A stretch of DNA of 6,176 nt, from NCBI GenBank assembly GCA_017421145.1, contig JAFOTA010000229.1, forward strand, positions 1-6,176, in the 5' to 3' direction. Below, in pieces: positions 1-6,176 of the stretch (its first letter is position 1; each line of letters begins with the position of its first letter). A model generated the notes under the pieces. The model saw nothing but the letters and a program-made list of their open reading frames with translations, ran no database searches and was not told where the DNA came from. This DNA comes from Treponema sp. (GTDB taxonomy: Bacteria > Spirochaetota > Spirochaetia > Treponematales > Treponemataceae). The position numbers were made by a program, and so were the translations under genes.

Positions 1-1446
1 AGCAAGCTTTGAGCCTGTCTTGTTCTCTTTCACCACGATGTCGTTCATAGAAAGCTTTTTCTTGAGGTCGCGCACTACGAATCTTACGGTAACGTCGGTG
101 TCAGTCTTGGAATATTCAAGCGATTCCTTTTTGAGCGTCGGCGGAACGAACACTTTCGTAGGATCAATCGTGTAAACATGGTCGTCAAGCGGATTTATAG
201 TCTCTCCGTTCTTGTCGAGCGCATAGATTGAGACCGTGCCGTAGCCGATGATTCCCGATACAGTCGCAATGTAAGTGACAGGAACGCCAGGAGTGAATTC
301 CTTCACCGCAGGTTCAATCTCGACCTTCTGAATATAGGATGTCTTGGTTATCTTGAATTCCTTTGACGTGAAGAGGTGGTCTGCCCCGCTGATTTTTATC
401 GGGATGGTCGCGACAGGAGACGTCGATGAATATGAGATTTCACCGTTGACAGCAGTAAGCTCTTCTACCGGCGGCTGAGGATTGTCAAGCTCGTCAAGGA
501 GAACCTCGCAGTATGCCATCTTGCTTGGAGCGTCCTTGTATTCCTTTGCATCGCGGAAATAAGATATGGCTTCCTTTATGTCCGTCCTGGATTTGGAGGC
601 CTTGAATCTATCAAGGTAAATTTCACCGATGTCATAGTTGCAGCCCAGAATCCTGCTTTTCACGTCGCTGTAGCCGCTCTTTTTTGTGTCGCATTTTTTG
701 AACCAGCTGATAGCATCCTTTTTGTCCGAGATGCCGGAAGATTTTGAAAGAAGGTCCCCGATTCCGTATGCAAGAGAAGCCTGTCTGTCAGTGCAGTCGT
801 TCTTTATCGTCGCATTGTATTTGGCGGCTTTTTCATAAAGGTCGAATCCCTTGCGCATCTGGTTGACGGTCGTTCCGGGATACCCTGCCTCAGCAATGGA
901 ATATATGAAAGATGCAACGTCACGGCTTTCAATCTGATAGCGTCCGGCAAAATCATCGCTGTATTTTTCTACATAATAGACTTCTCCCTTGTATGGGTCG
1001 CCTATTTCATACGGCATGTTCTTGACTGCTTTTTGAATCCTGTAAAGGTCCTCGGCACGTATGTACGCGTTTTCAGCCCTTGTGACCGCAGAACGCACGG
1101 AACTTTCGTCGCCTATGTACCCGCCGCTTGCAAGTGACGCTTGGACGGCATCAAGTGCTGCAGAAAGATTCGACGCACCCTTTGAGCTTATGAAAGAGCT
1201 TACTACGTCGGAAACAGTCTCCGGGTTGTCACGTCTCTGATCGACCGCAGAAGCATAGACAGATATAAAAAGATCCGCATCATCCTGATTCGTGCTTTTT
1301 TTCGTAAGGCTTTTCGCAAGCTTTTCTATGGCCGTAACGACATCGCCTTTTTCAACGAGCTGCCTGGCCGAAGCACAACCTATCAACGATGCCGCCACAA
1401 AGACAGCAATCAGCGAAGCAGCAATGCATGAAATGCTTTTTTTCAT
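1..1446 (-). CDS. Predicted lipoprotein with TPR-like helical region and beta-rich C-terminal part (C-terminus beyond window)
   Basis: The frame is open from an ATG at 1446-1444 to the left edge: 482 codons with no stop, so the C-terminus is missing. The N-terminus reads MKKSISC..., followed by a hydrophobic stretch and the lipobox L21-I22-G23-C24. This predicts cleavage before Cys24 and lipid anchoring in the inner or outer membrane. Residues about 30-320 are helix-rich. From about 245 to 315 there are TPR-like patterns (AISWFKKC, AISYFRDAKEYKDAPSKMAYC). After a Pro-rich linker (NPQPPVEE, about 325-332) the sequence becomes beta-rich, with alternating Val/Ile/Thr residues suggesting Ig-like or similar sandwich domains up to the edge. 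I do not recognise a named family. TPR plus beta modules suggest protein-protein interaction or scaffolding at the envelope, which is inference. The start is supported by AAGGAG eight bases upstream and a consensus promoter. It lies downstream of thiI on the same strand but has its own promoter. Confidence 0.85.
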   Translation of the reverse strand, partial: MKKSISCIAASLIAVFVAASLIGCASARQLVEKGDVVTAIEKLAKSLTKKSTNQDDADLFISVYASAVDQRRDNPETVSDVVSSFISSKGASNLSAALDAVQASLASGGYIGDESSVRSAVTRAENAYIRAEDLYRIQKAVKNMPYEIGDPYKGEVYYVEKYSDDFAGRYQIESRDVASFIYSIAEAGYPGTTVNQMRKGFDLYEKAAKYNATIKNDCTDRQASLAYGIGDLLSKSSGISDKKDAISWFKKCDTKKSGYSDVKSRILGCNYDIGEIYLDRFKASKSRTDIKEAISYFRDAKEYKDAPSKMAYCEVLLDELDNPQPPVEELTAVNGEISYSSTSPVATIPIKISGADHLFTSKEFKITKTSYIQKVEIEPAVKEFTPGVPVTYIATVSGIIGYGTVSIYALDKNGETINPLDDHVYTIDPTKVFVPPTLKKESLEYSKTDTDVTVRFVVRDLKKKLSMNDIVVKENKTGSKLA

Positions 1447-1528: not shown

Positions 1529-1540
1529 ATTCATGCATCG
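1511..1540. repeat. Inverted repeat centred on the -35 box (candidate operator)
   Basis: Arms CGATGCA (1511-1517) and TGCATCG (1534-1540) are perfectly complementary and separated by 16 bases. The centre, 1525.5, is exactly the centre of the TTGACA -35 hexamer of the lipoprotein promoter. The half-sites are 23 bases apart centre to centre, about two helical turns on the same face, as expected for a dimeric regulator. One arm overlaps the last codons of thiI. No T-run follows either arm, so it does not look like a terminator. Operator function is inference. Confidence 0.4.
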
Positions 1541-2778
1541 ACATCAGATTTTCCGAATTTTCCTGCGACGGTATCCTCAAGAGAATAATGGATGATCTGC
1601 CTTTCGTCGAATGCCTTCTGAATCAGCGCGTCAACGTCCATGCCTTCGTATATTTTCCTTGCCTCAGCAGGATCGGCACGGAGAACAGGATGCTTGGGGC
1701 TGAAAAGAACGCAGCAGTCTTCATATGGAAGAACGGAAATTCCGTATGTGCCTATTGATTCAGCGGTGCTGACGATTTCTTCCTTGTCAAGACCGATCAA
1801 AGGCCTGTAAAGAGGATGCTCGGCAAAGCTTTCCGTCACCGAAAGGTTGCTCACGGTCTGGCTTGCCACCTGACCAAGGCTTTCGCCGGTTATTATGGCA
1901 TCGGCATGGATTTTTGAAGCAAGCATGTTCGCGGCCTTCATCATGCAGAGCCTGAGCATAAGTGTGGAAAACGCTTCCGGGGATGATTTTTTAATCTGCA
2001 TCTGGACATCCGTAAACGAAATAACGTTGAGGTAGGTCTCGCATCCGAAATCACCAAGAATGCGCGCAAGATCCTCTACTTTTTTCTGGGCTTCCTCGGA
2101 TGTATACGGATATGAATGGAAGTATACGCAGTCAACCCTCATTCCGCGGCACATCATCCTGTAGCCTGCAACCGGACTGTCAAGGCCACCGCTCAAAAGC
2201 AAAAGACCCTTTCCGCTCACACCGACCGGAAGACCACGGCAAGTCCTGTGCTGGGAAGAATAAACGTATGCCCTGTCACGGATCTCAACGTTGATCACCA
2301 CGTCGGGATTGTGGACGTCCACCCTGAGTATTCCTCCGTCGCTTGCATCCCCGGCAGCCTCAACGCAGATTTCGTATGAATTCATCGGGAAAGATTTGTC
2401 TTCGCGCCTTGCTTCCACCTTGAAAGTCGCCGCACCTGAATCACGTGCTTCCATGCATAGATCACAGACCGTTTTTCTTATCATGTCTATGTCCTTTTCA
2501 ACCGCACGCACCTTTGCCCATCCGGTTATTCCGATAAGGTGGTCAAGCACATATTCAACCGCACCGCATGATTTTTCCGGACAGCTCACATAAAGCCTTC
2601 CGTTTCTCAAAAAGACATCGGAATCTACGCTTGCAAGAGCCTGCCTTGCGTTTTTCACAAGCTGCCTTTCAAAAATCTTTTTGTTCGAGCCTTTCAAAGT
2701 CAGCTCACCGAGCTTTCCGAGATACTGCTGCGTATAGGAACTTAAATCCTTCTGCGCCGGAATCCTACGTTCAGACAC
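1531..2778 (-). CDS. thiI: tRNA 4-thiouridine synthase ThiI, short form without rhodanese domain
   Basis: ThiI adenylates U8 of tRNA with ATP and inserts sulfur to make 4-thiouridine; in many bacteria it also supplies sulfur for the thiamine thiazole. It is cytoplasmic. Numbering from the in-frame ATG at 2790: an N-terminal ferredoxin-like segment with YLGKLGELTLKG (23-34), a THUMP region (about 76-175), the ATP-binding PP-loop SGGLDSPVAGY (200-210), the family motif TGESLGQVASQT (301-312) and PYEDCC (355-360) with its Cys pair. It ends at 419, so the C-terminal rhodanese domain of the E. coli-type enzyme is absent; such short forms take sulfur from a cysteine desulfurase by another route. 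I chose GTG 2778 (residue 5) because GGAGG lies five bases before it, while the ATG at 2790 has no ribosome binding site. It probably shares a transcript with the barrel gene just upstream. Confidence 0.95.
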   Translation of the reverse strand: MSERRIPAQKDLSSYTQQYLGKLGELTLKGSNKKIFERQLVKNARQALASVDSDVFLRNGRLYVSCPEKSCGAVEYVLDHLIGITGWAKVRAVEKDIDMIRKTVCDLCMEARDSGAATFKVEARREDKSFPMNSYEICVEAAGDASDGGILRVDVHNPDVVINVEIRDRAYVYSSQHRTCRGLPVGVSGKGLLLLSGGLDSPVAGYRMMCRGMRVDCVYFHSYPYTSEEAQKKVEDLARILGDFGCETYLNVISFTDVQMQIKKSSPEAFSTLMLRLCMMKAANMLASKIHADAIITGESLGQVASQTVSNLSVTESFAEHPLYRPLIGLDKEEIVSTAESIGTYGISVLPYEDCCVLFSPKHPVLRADPAEARKIYEGMDVDALIQKAFDERQIIHYSLEDTVAGKFGKSDVDA

Positions 2779-2783
2779 TTTTT

Positions 2784-2788
2784 CCTCC
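2784..2788 (-). promoter_or_regulatory. Ribosome binding site deciding the thiI start
   Basis: Minus-strand sequence ATGGAGGAAAAAGTG contains GGAGG followed by five A residues and then GTG (2778-2776). The GGAGG overlaps the apparent ATG start at 2790-2788, so the ATG is more likely part of the ribosome binding site than the start. The upstream stop codon TGA (2797-2795) is seven bases before this site, which would favour translational coupling with the barrel gene. Confidence 0.65.
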
Positions 2789-2794
2789 ATTAAT

Positions 2795-4582
2795 TCAGAA
2801 CTGATATTTCACGCCTATAGAAAAATAATTGTTGATTTCGTCCCTGAATCCTGACCTCCACAAATTCCTGAAATGGCTTACGAGATCAGAGGCTGAATAA
2901 TCCGTGCTGTCGCCGTCAATGTGGTATACGCCGGAAGTACAGGTGATTGCAGAACCTTGTCCAGGGAACATGTTTGCGTCAACGCCCTTGTTTCTTATCC
3001 ATTCAAAAAGATAGGAAACTGAGAAAGTGAGCTGTCCCCACGCATATTTTTTAAGAGAGTATTCGGCTCCTATGCTTTCCTGAAGGACATACATTATATC
3101 ATCCTGGTTCAGGAAATTAAGGACTCCTGAAGATGGTATTGCAGTTCCTGAGGTTCCTGTCTGGTTTGACATGAGCGGATGGTTGTAGAGTCCTCCGTCC
3201 GTGGCATAAGTTCCTGCCGGAGACATAAGGTATGCTATGGCCTCCTCGTCGGAAATGGACTGATTGACGTTTCCATGACGCATGAAAGTTGACAAAAGCT
3301 TTACGTGCAGCTCAGGAAGCGGTATGAAATCAAGCTCGAAAGAAAGCCTGTCACTGTTCGGCGGATATGAAGAACCCATCGGAATGCCGTTGTTGCTGTA
3401 GTTCAGGTAATTGTACATCCTGTCGGTAATGGTTCCTGTGGTCGTATCGGTATAATCGGCATGGGTGTACGTGTACGGGAAGAGCATCGTGTAGTCAAGC
3501 GACATGCGCGTGCAGAAAGAGTCGGCAGGAGTGTATATGAGGCCTGTTTTGACCGCCGCGAACATCTTCGTGTTGAATCCGTTGGCAAAAAATCCGGCAA
3601 TATCAAAATCATCTATAAAAATGTCGGTCGCCCACAAAAATCCGTTGTAAGGCCTTACCTTGAAAGCCAGTCCCATCTGAAGATTGTCGTTGTATCCGCC
3701 TATTTCCTGCGCAACGATATAAGGCACGGGCATCAGATATGAAGGATCCAGTCTCTTTCCGAATACGATCGATTCATAATACGCAAGCGAAAACTGCGGT
3801 ACGAATTTGAATTCAAGCGCATGGAATGCCATGTATTTGTCCGGGGCAATCAGGCTTCCGTCAAAGCTCATGGTGGCTCCTATGGCAGAATACTGCTGCG
3901 TGTATGACCATTTCGGATTCACGGCGGTAAAAGACAGGTTCGTTCTATGGTATGAATTGTCGCTCAAAGAAAGCCCTGCATTTATGAAAGGTCCGTATCC
4001 TGAGCGGTAGATTCCCGTCTGAACGAAAATGTTCTTCTTTCCGATTGCGACCACATCGTTCATCTCAAGGAAAAAATCCATCGCTCCGAGAGAAACCTTG
4101 TTGCGGCGTGCATCATGACCGTCGTTTTCATAGATGGCAAGATAATCGGTCACGTTGTGGTTGTAGCATGCAAGCCCCAGGTCGTATCCCATCGAAACGA
4201 AGCCGTTGAAAAAAGACACGTCGCCGTTCACGTTCGGGTACAGCGAAAAAAGTATGCCGCCGAAATCCGAAGTACCGGCATCCTTCTTGTATGTGGCATC
4301 GGTTTCAACAGAAACGTTCCAGGGTTTTCCGGTGACTTTTTCCCAGTAAAGCTTTGCGTTCCTTACATCCCTTTCGTTTCCCTTTTCCATCACGGATTCC
4401 AATATGCTCCGTATGTTGGCGATAGGATAAGGTCTCAAAGGCGGCACTTCCGATATTATGCCCCTAAGCTCCCAGGATTCGACAAGGCTGTAAAAAGTGT
4501 CGTCGGGATCAACGCTCACCTGGGCAAAGGATGCGGAGGCAAACGACAGCAAAAGACAAATTGCAACAAATACTTTTTTCAT
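2795..4582 (-). CDS. Predicted outer-membrane beta-barrel protein, Wzi/capsule-assembly-like
   Basis: The 595-residue protein begins with a Sec signal peptide: MKKVFVAICLLL followed by SFA, cleavage after Ala20. Residues about 27-85 form a helical N-terminal segment (DDTFYSLVESWELRGI, then PLRPYPIANIRSILESV). The rest is rich in alternating aromatic and polar residues and ends in KYQF; a C-terminal Phe is the usual signature of barrels inserted by the BAM machinery. Features resembling the Wzi capsule-assembly family include GKKNIFVQTGIYRSGYGPF (181-199), SLSDNSYHRTNLSF (205-218), MAFHALEFKF through YYESIVFG (251-275) and LWATDIFIDDFDI (316-328). Wzi itself is shorter, about 480 residues, so this is a fold-level guess and not an orthologue claim. 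It could bind or export a surface polysaccharide, or be another Treponema barrel. The start is supported by GGAG seven bases upstream. Four bases separate its stop from the first ATG of thiI, so an operon is likely. Confidence 0.75.
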   Translation of the reverse strand: MKKVFVAICLLLSFASASFAQVSVDPDDTFYSLVESWELRGIISEVPPLRPYPIANIRSILESVMEKGNERDVRNAKLYWEKVTGKPWNVSVETDATYKKDAGTSDFGGILFSLYPNVNGDVSFFNGFVSMGYDLGLACYNHNVTDYLAIYENDGHDARRNKVSLGAMDFFLEMNDVVAIGKKNIFVQTGIYRSGYGPFINAGLSLSDNSYHRTNLSFTAVNPKWSYTQQYSAIGATMSFDGSLIAPDKYMAFHALEFKFVPQFSLAYYESIVFGKRLDPSYLMPVPYIVAQEIGGYNDNLQMGLAFKVRPYNGFLWATDIFIDDFDIAGFFANGFNTKMFAAVKTGLIYTPADSFCTRMSLDYTMLFPYTYTHADYTDTTTGTITDRMYNYLNYSNNGIPMGSSYPPNSDRLSFELDFIPLPELHVKLLSTFMRHGNVNQSISDEEAIAYLMSPAGTYATDGGLYNHPLMSNQTGTSGTAIPSSGVLNFLNQDDIMYVLQESIGAEYSLKKYAWGQLTFSVSYLFEWIRNKGVDANMFPGQGSAITCTSGVYHIDGDSTDYSASDLVSHFRNLWRSGFRDEINNYFSIGVKYQF

Positions 4583-4743: not shown

Positions 4744-5787
4744 ATGATGAACCGCAAACTTTTCGCAAGACTCACAGCCTCCGCAATACTAGGCCTGATT
4801 TTTATATTTCAGGTCCATGGAGGCACAATCACTGCGGATACGACAGACTATTATGCGCTTGCCCGGCAGGGAACGGCAAAAGAGATATCCGAAGCATTCA
4901 AAAAAGACAAAAAGCTTTCAAAAATGACGTTCGGAGACAAAAAAGAAACGCTTCTCATGATGGCGCTTGAATCTGACAGGGAACTTTCCGTAATAAAGGC
5001 GGTTCTTGAAGGAGGATGCTCGGTTACGGCACAGAATTCCGACGGGAAAACCCCGGTCATGTATGCCTGCGAGCACACAAGCAATCCTTCACTGCTCTCC
5101 TACCTCGTCACCTACGGCACAAGCATGAACATAGGGGTTGCATCAAGGGTTCAGGCGATTGACCACGACGGCCTCACACCCTTCGATTATGCAAGGAAAA
5201 ACTCGACTCCCGGACTCCTACCGATACTTGAAAAATACGGACAGGAACCGTCACAGCAAAAAAAGAACGACACATACGCAAAATACCACCCGGAAAGCGT
5301 AAAATCATCTGCAGAAAAAAATGCTGATCAGGAAACTGATGCGGCAGAAACACAAAATGCAGTGCAAAAAGCCATGAAACCGGCAGAAAAGCTTCCGGCA
5401 GACGACTGGGTGATAAATTCAAGCCGATGGCATTATATCGGAAATGCAAACATAGAAGACAACAGCGAGAACTCTGAAAAGGATGATGAGGAAACGCCAG
5501 AAGAGCCTGAAGAACAAGAGGAACCTGAAGAACAGGAAGAGCCGGAAAAAGAAGAGCCAGGCGAACAGGAAGAAAAAAAGCCCGATGCCGTGACACCGGA
5601 AAAAGAAGAAGAAAAAACAGAGGAAAAAGCCGAAGAAAAACAGCCGGAAGAAGAGCCGAAACAGACGGACGACTCGGATTGGACGGTAAATTCAAGCCGA
5701 TGGCATTATATTGGCTCTGCGAACATAGAGGAAAAAGAAGAAGAACCTCAGATTGAAGAGCCGGAAGAAGAAACTCCAGTCGAATAA
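4744..5787 (+). CDS. Secreted ankyrin-repeat protein with Glu/Pro-rich tail, ended by an in-frame TAA
   Basis: The product has 347 residues. MMNRKLFARL and a hydrophobic segment to about residue 26 form a Sec signal peptide (probable cleavage near VHG). Residues about 34-167 carry three to four ankyrin repeats: YYALARQGTAKEISEAF, ETLLMMALESDRELSVIKAVL, DGKTPVMYACEH with LLSYLVTYG, and DGLTPFDYARK with LLPILEKYG. Ankyrin repeats bind protein partners; this one should act in the periplasm or at the surface, partner unknown. From about 185 the sequence is acidic and Pro-rich, like extended envelope-spanning linkers, and contains two copies of DWxxNSSRWHYIGxANIE. The stop TAA (5785-5787) falls inside a tandem repeat where the other units have GAA, and the same frame stays open to the window edge, so the gene is probably broken or read through. 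The start is ATG 4744 or 4747; translation is probably leaderless. Transcribed away from the other genes. Confidence 0.85.
   Translation: MMNRKLFARLTASAILGLIFIFQVHGGTITADTTDYYALARQGTAKEISEAFKKDKKLSKMTFGDKKETLLMMALESDRELSVIKAVLEGGCSVTAQNSDGKTPVMYACEHTSNPSLLSYLVTYGTSMNIGVASRVQAIDHDGLTPFDYARKNSTPGLLPILEKYGQEPSQQKKNDTYAKYHPESVKSSAEKNADQETDAAETQNAVQKAMKPAEKLPADDWVINSSRWHYIGNANIEDNSENSEKDDEETPEEPEEQEEPEEQEEPEKEEPGEQEEKKPDAVTPEKEEEKTEEKAEEKQPEEEPKQTDDSDWTVNSSRWHYIGSANIEEKEEEPQIEEPEEETPVE
5404..5457 (+). repeat. Motif DWxxNSSRWHYIGxANIE, copy 1
   Basis: Encodes residues 221-238 of the ankyrin protein. It is the only aromatic-rich stretch (two Trp, one Tyr, one His) in the acidic tail besides copy 2. 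A 25-bp core (5414-5438) is identical in DNA to 5687-5711. I do not recognise the motif. Confidence 0.85.
5500..5553 (+). repeat. 18-bp-period repeat encoding EEPEEQ
   Basis: Two clean hexapeptide units EEPEEQ (residues 253-258 and 259-264) and a third degenerate unit EEPEKE. The DNA units vary at third codon positions (caa/cag, gag/gaa), so the repeat is kept at protein level. It lies between the two aromatic motifs. Confidence 0.7.
5677..5730 (+). repeat. Motif DWxxNSSRWHYIGxANIE, copy 2
   Basis: Encodes residues 312-329, exactly 91 residues (273 bp) after copy 1. Thirteen of the fourteen core positions from Asn-Ser-Ser to the final Glu are the same (Asn/Ser is the exception). The flanks on both sides are low-complexity acidic sequence. 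Confidence 0.85.
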
Positions 5788-5889
5788 CCTGAAGAAGAAA
5801 CCCCGGTTGAAGAACCTGAGGAAGAAACCCCGGTTGAAGAGCCTGAGGAAGAAACTCCTGTTGAAGAACCTGAGGAAGAAGTCCAGCCT
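5755..5889 (+). repeat. 27-bp tandem repeat encoding (E)EPEEETPV, containing the TAA
   Basis: Four good units start at 5755, 5782, 5809 and 5836; a fifth (5863-5889) keeps its first six codons and then diverges. Units 1, 3 and 4 encode EEPEEETPV. Unit 2 is the same except that its second codon is TAA instead of GAA/GAG. All other differences among the four units are synonymous third-position changes (gaa/gag, ccg/cct/cca, act/acc, gtc/gtt). Confidence 0.9.
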
Positions 5890-5916
5890 GAACCTGAAGA
5901 AAAGCAGCCTTCAGGA

Positions 5917-5982
5917 GACAGACCGGGTGAAGAAGTATTCTCTGAAGAAAACGTCGAGGAACAGCAGATTGAAGAACCGGAG
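5917..5982 (+). repeat. Module DxPGExV...ENVEEQxIEEPE, copy 1
   Basis: A 66-bp, 22-codon module downstream of the TAA, in the ankyrin frame. It matches the copy at 6085-6150 at 16 of 22 residues. The repeat distance is 168 bp (56 codons). It is related in style to the ANIEE...QIEEPE stretch just before the stop. Confidence 0.65.
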
Positions 5983-6084
5983 CCTGAACCAGAGCATATT
6001 GAAGAACCAATAGAAGAGGAACATCCTGAAGAAACCGTCGAGGATGAAGTTCCTCCTGAACCGGAAGAACCTGAGCCTCAGGAT

Positions 6085-6150
6085 GACAAGCCGGGAGAAA
6101 CTGTCGTTCCTAACGAGAACGTAGAAGAACAGAAGATTGAAGAGCCGGAA
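6085..6150 (+). repeat. Module DxPGExV...ENVEEQxIEEPE, copy 2
   Basis: Second copy of the 22-codon module, beginning DKPGETVVPNENVEEQ. Several identical residues use different codons from copy 1 (ggt/gga, gtc/gta, gag/gaa), so the similarity is at the protein level and not only a recent DNA duplication. Confidence 0.65.
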
Positions 6151-6176
6151 CAGCCTGCTGTAGAAGAACCTGTTGC

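Follow-up and report, generated by a model that had tools for sequence, protein, structure and literature searches.

Does an in-frame TAA codon mark the natural end of a gene, or does it break a gene that runs on? The question is raised by a reading frame for an ankyrin-repeat protein in DNA of a gut-type Treponema sp. (GenBank assembly GCA_017421145.1, contig JAFOTA010000229.1), a stretch of 6,176 nucleotides that was analysed whole and is here called the window. The frame ends at TAA 5785-5787 and then stays open up to the window end. That this TAA is the ancestral end of the gene is very unlikely, because the tail beyond it is coding and 25 of 30 related genomes keep an N-terminal ankyrin block, a linker and a C-terminal ankyrin block in one frame. 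From sequence comparison, the codon appears to interrupt a conserved two-ended ankyrin protein, and its likeliest origin is either an ordinary mutation that broke the gene recently or an error in sequencing.

The ankyrin gene and the repeat that holds its stop

The ankyrin gene and its neighbours up to the stop are laid out as follows.

1-1446, minus strand: gene running off the window start, with no family
1531-2790, minus strand: ThiI (TIGR00342, 327.8 bits, cut-off 264.5)
2795-4582, minus strand: outer-membrane-type protein, labelled by inspection, with no Pfam/NCBIfam family
4744-5787, plus strand: ankyrin reading frame of 347 aa, with ATG at 4744 and ended by TAA 5785-5787 (ORF listing, Ank_2 match)
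4744-4821, plus strand: N-terminal hydrophobic leader, residues 1-26, signal-peptide-like by inspection (predicted helix 5-23, low pLDDT)
4954-5253, plus strand: N-terminal ankyrin block, residues 71-170 (Ank_2 E 9.6e-15; ankyrin solenoid in the model)
5758-5880, plus strand: 27-bp tandem array encoding EPEEETPVE, with four full units and a partial fifth, the stop being the first codon of unit 2 (Tandem Repeats Finder, frame reading)
5785-5787, plus strand: in-frame TAA (reading of the frame)

The reading frame belongs to the ankyrin proteins by its Ank_2 match (55.4 bits, cut-off 27.3). Structurally, its N-terminal block is modelled as an ankyrin solenoid from seven sequences, with pLDDT of 90 or more at 139 of 217 residues and pTM 0.69. 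Solved ankyrin proteins, DARPins and gankyrin among them, match the model at E values of about 1e-5 to 1e-4, with a TM-score near 0.5 over a query that takes in disordered ends. The architecture, including the signal-like leader, suggests that the protein may be exported, and that its two ankyrin blocks may serve as partner-binding platforms joined by a flexible linker.

The first-pass annotation, made from the sequence by itself, placed the end of the gene at this TAA in the second unit of a 27-bp repeat, and the codon does share its frame with the ATG at 4744. Between that ATG and the window end the frame has no other stop, and the TAA is the only lesion in about 1430 bases of visible ankyrin gene. 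Tandem Repeats Finder reports a 27-bp unit with 5.3 copies and 86% matches. Counted in codon register, the full units occupy 5758-5784, 5785-5811, 5812-5838 and 5839-5865, followed by an incomplete fifth at 5866-5880; the annotated unit of 5782-5808 thus falls in the same array, one codon off from unit 2. Where unit 2 has the stop, the other three full units have a codon for Glu, so that a single change explains the stop, as had been proposed.

The remaining differences among the four units, at least seven as counted from the listing, are all synonymous, which also agrees with that first reading. Under random point changes, seven out of seven synonymous differences would have a probability of about 3e-5 to 1.4e-4, depending on the transition bias. 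These differences mostly record constraint before the stop arose, and they are therefore silent on both the persistence of constraint and the recency of the stop. The claim that the tail was under coding constraint until very recently, or still is, holds in that the tail was coding; the synonymous changes on which it leaned prove neither persistence nor recency.

The frame beyond the stop

Two linker motifs, one lying before the stop and one after it, frame the evidence on the tail.

5407-5457, plus strand: motif WxxNSxxWxxxGxANIx, first copy (motif search)
5680-5730, plus strand: motif WxxNSxxWxxxGxANIx, second copy (motif search)
5788-6174, plus strand: 129 open codons that carry the frame on, acidic (45% Glu+Asp), Pro-rich (20%) and homologous to the linkers of relatives
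5917-5958, plus strand: motif D[RK]PGExVxxxENVE, first copy, after the stop (motif search)
6085-6126, plus strand: motif D[RK]PGExVxxxENVE, second copy, after the stop (motif search)

The frame had been said to stay open for at least 129 codons, and 129 open codons do lead up to the window end. None of 2000 dinucleotide shuffles of 5788-6174 is open in the ankyrin frame (mean 6.5 stops); read in its two remaining forward frames, the tail has 3 and 21 stops. Aligned with the linker of the ortholog at locus L001, the 129-residue tail scores 338, against a mean of 179 and a maximum of 220 in 1000 shuffles; with the linker of L079 (from genome G003) it scores 274, against a shuffle maximum of 216. 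The other two tail frames score 19-34 in the linker alignments. The motif D[RK]PGExVxxxENVE is found twice in the window tail and five times in L001, with single copies in L002 and L079; it is unmatched in P0001, P0005, P0006 and P0007, and in the window before the stop.

Because this motif is common to the linkers of the three nearest species and the L001 alignment stands far above its shuffles, the sequence after the stop is real coding sequence and continues the ankyrin gene. Relatedness to the linkers is thus seen in motifs on both sides of the stop, in alignment and in composition. The tail by itself matched no Pfam family. The motif WxxNSxxWxxxGxANIx recurs in the closest relatives (P0004 at 433 and 534, L002 at 245, P0001 at 249, P0005 at 444), and no Pfam/NCBIfam model above cut-off has its best stretch there. 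A further gene with a start of its own in the visible tail was considered and rejected: 5788-6174 holds no in-frame ATG, GTG or TTG, although it does have four ATT/ATA codons.

How recent the stop is can be bounded loosely. The absence of other lesions in the visible gene supports its recency, and does so weakly, because only 69 of the 1161 possible single changes in the tail create a stop. With equal rates assumed, the lack of further tail stops would limit the divergence since the stop to something like 0.13 per site.

A two-ended ankyrin protein in Treponema

The ThiI relatives are found at 31 loci in genome_contigs, and every title reads Treponema, Spirochaetaceae or Spirochaetales; a ruminant host is named in 10 of these titles, and another 5 have RUG labels, which stand for the rumen. 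The best ThiI identities are 90% (L001), 81% (L002) and 80% (L003), and at these three loci, too, the ankyrin gene adjoins the outer-membrane-type gene and ThiI. Among 196 genomes of the genus of G001, drawn from a larger group, the closest are 74-80% DNA-identical over 1531-4582, too distant to count as the window's own species. Compared with its nearest orthologs, the ankyrin protein of the window is about 44-51% identical, the outer-membrane-type neighbour 79% and ThiI 80-90%. The ankyrin protein is thus fast-changing, diverging much faster than its neighbours, and its truncation might be tolerated.

The N-terminal block finds clear homologs in other genomes, including copies in G001 (48% identity, E 2.8e-57) and G002 (49%, E 1.5e-55). 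Among the loci and proteins compared, its identity is 45% to L001, 49% to L002, 46% to P0001, 42% to P0007, 44% to P0008 and 27% to P0002. The N and C blocks lie in one frame with their linker in 25 of 30 related genomes, a count that takes in only the genomes given loci by the search, one locus per genome, best first, and leaves out G003, with its gene divided over separate contigs, and G014, with undetermined bases inside its linker. Four others (G002, G091, G151, G154) run off their contig end after the N block, without a stop. In the last, G020, the N and C blocks lie in two different frames that overlap, and the overlap contains an A-run; the N frame of this copy, too, therefore ends at a linker stop. 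No linker stop occurs in any of the 25 intact relatives. It had been reasoned that relatives consistently carrying the stop with a decayed frame behind it would point to an ordinary ancestral stop; across these genomes of other species that pattern is absent.

The ortholog at L001 (P0004, 3865-7836) is one frame of 1323 aa with two N-terminal ankyrin blocks, a linker and a C-terminal ankyrin block; that of L002 is open for 392 aa up to its contig end. P0005 (1167 aa), P0006 (1065 aa), P0007 (749 aa) and P0008 (750 aa) have ankyrin repeats at both linker ends. No non-ankyrin model was above cut-off for P0004-P0008 in Pfam or for P0004 in NCBIfam. The two-ended ankyrin protein, as predicted from these frames, is present in many Treponema species. 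Broader tallies of ankyrin genes (155 of 200 and 192 of 196 genomes) take in weak, generic ankyrin matches. Linker length in the 25 intact copies is 69-737 aa, a range of about tenfold, with Glu+Asp at 18-42%, Pro at 3-23% and Lys+Arg at 1-23%. Since these ranges are wide, the description "acidic, Pro-rich" suits the window and the relatives closest to it more than it suits the group at large.

Several observations touch on the same family. Two-ended ankyrin proteins also occur in L040-L067 and L073-L076. At L077 (G014), the N and C ankyrin parts are in different frames with undetermined bases between them, and at L078 (G020, 1801-3538) the frame break is either a homopolymer error or a second natural break. 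P0001 is a 362-aa homolog on a 1389-bp contig, whose first 45 residues are, by inspection, those of the L003 fragment; the tail that follows looks unrelated, and the contig was probably broken or misjoined within the linker. A direct search with the ankyrin N-terminal part found no relative in genome_contigs and viral_contigs, a region-limited protein search passed 0 of 786 candidates, and the first protein search, which scored only the 7993 candidates with most words in common, found 3. A literature search on ankyrin repeat proteins in rumen Treponema gave no papers, and none of 10 titles from another search names this family; in PMC4403809, on hypothetical proteins of another Treponema, the words "ankyrin repeat" occur once.

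Weighing the explanations

We favour, with moderate confidence, a genuine and recent nonsense mutation in the sampled cell or population. The gene would encode an N-terminal ankyrin block behind a signal-like leader, then a low-complexity linker of variable length, then a C-terminal ankyrin block, and a single change would have turned one linker codon into TAA. Translation would then end at residue 347. The product would keep the leader, the first ankyrin block and the linker as far as the stop, and would lack the remaining linker and the second ankyrin block. This supposes that the base is real and that the second block lies beyond the window, which stops within the linker. Other species are mostly intact (25 of 30, with four cut by contig ends and one frame change), as a recent pseudogene would predict. 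The reading is limited because the nearest genomes, only 74-80% DNA-identical over the neighbouring genes, give no check on the base itself.

A recent nonsense mutation and a base-call error were both named in the first-pass annotation, and these are the two live options. The main rival, to be entertained tentatively, is thus that the TAA entered a metagenome-type contig through a base-call error, a consensus error or a mixture of strains, and that the gene in living cells has no interruption. It is an isolated single difference in an otherwise open, homologous frame, and the broken copy of G020 has its A-run in the frame overlap, and such runs often carry indel errors. The stop lies 389 bases before the window end, which itself falls within the repeat region, and the contigs of G002, G091, G151 and G154 end in the linker while one of G003 begins there; assembly trouble is plausible because the window and five relatives' contigs end or begin in this part of the gene. 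However, the array of four units spans 108 bases, and ordinary sequencing reads are longer than that; since the units can also be told apart by their synonymous changes, a collapse of the repeat is not obvious.

The other explanations fare far worse. It is improbable that the stop is fixed in the species and that the short product, with its leader, ankyrin block and part of the linker, is a working protein: the upstream frame is intact and its ankyrin block confidently modelled, but most relatives keep both blocks in one frame, and the visible tail is without decay beyond the stop. The first-pass annotation had also offered an on/off surface-protein variant, which finds no support here and whose surface location is putative. 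A reversible switch, in which the stop-bearing unit is gained and lost by recombination between units, would suit a stop in a tandem repeat and a linker that differs so widely in length between species. It is nevertheless a slim prospect, in that no second state of the locus was seen, the intact relatives have no linker stop, and the 27-bp unit is nine codons, so that copy number by itself leaves the frame unchanged and cannot switch it. There is an equally faint chance that a Treponema population mixes short forms, with one ankyrin block, and long two-ended forms through recombination of such a unit; if true, exchange of the unit would be an in-frame, repeat-based switch of protein architecture. 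Least credible is the suggestion that the stop is read through or recoded and the full-length protein also made. The tail is intact in frame, as this would require, but TAA is the commonest stop in long reading frames of L001-L010 (46 of 109, with 33 TGA and 30 TAG), the linkers of the 25 intact relatives are free of stops, and the RNA of 5770-5900 shows no unusual degree of structure (z 0.63, with 143 of 200 shuffles folding just as well). Stop reassignment was likewise rejected on the ordinary use of TAA in these relatives, leaving neither a reassigned stop nor a stimulating RNA structure.

Taken alone, this stop in a fast-changing Treponema protein is either an ordinary event affecting one codon or an error. 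The analysis also yielded something useful, namely the description of a Treponema protein whose ankyrin blocks flank a linker of highly variable length. Additionally, the linker is where several relatives' contigs break, and truncated copies on contigs need reads before a pseudogene is called.

Among known systems, the Dot/Icm ankyrin effectors (NCBIfam NF043022 and others) have only ankyrin repeats in common with the window, which differs by its signal-like leader and long low-complexity linker; membership was rejected at 28.8 bits for the window and 82.5 bits for P0004, against an equivalog cut-off of 500. The two-ended ankyrin proteins of Treponema are like the window in the N block, and the three nearest species also have the D[RK]PGE linker motif, whereas the window copy has a linker stop and a C-terminal block that would lie beyond the window, and the linker of P0006 differs from that of the window with only 1% Pro and 20% Lys+Arg. 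Bacterial genes recently interrupted by a nonsense change, the candidate pseudogenes, resemble the window, here compared with other species only, in having one lesion, a homologous frame that continues after it, and related species that are mostly intact.
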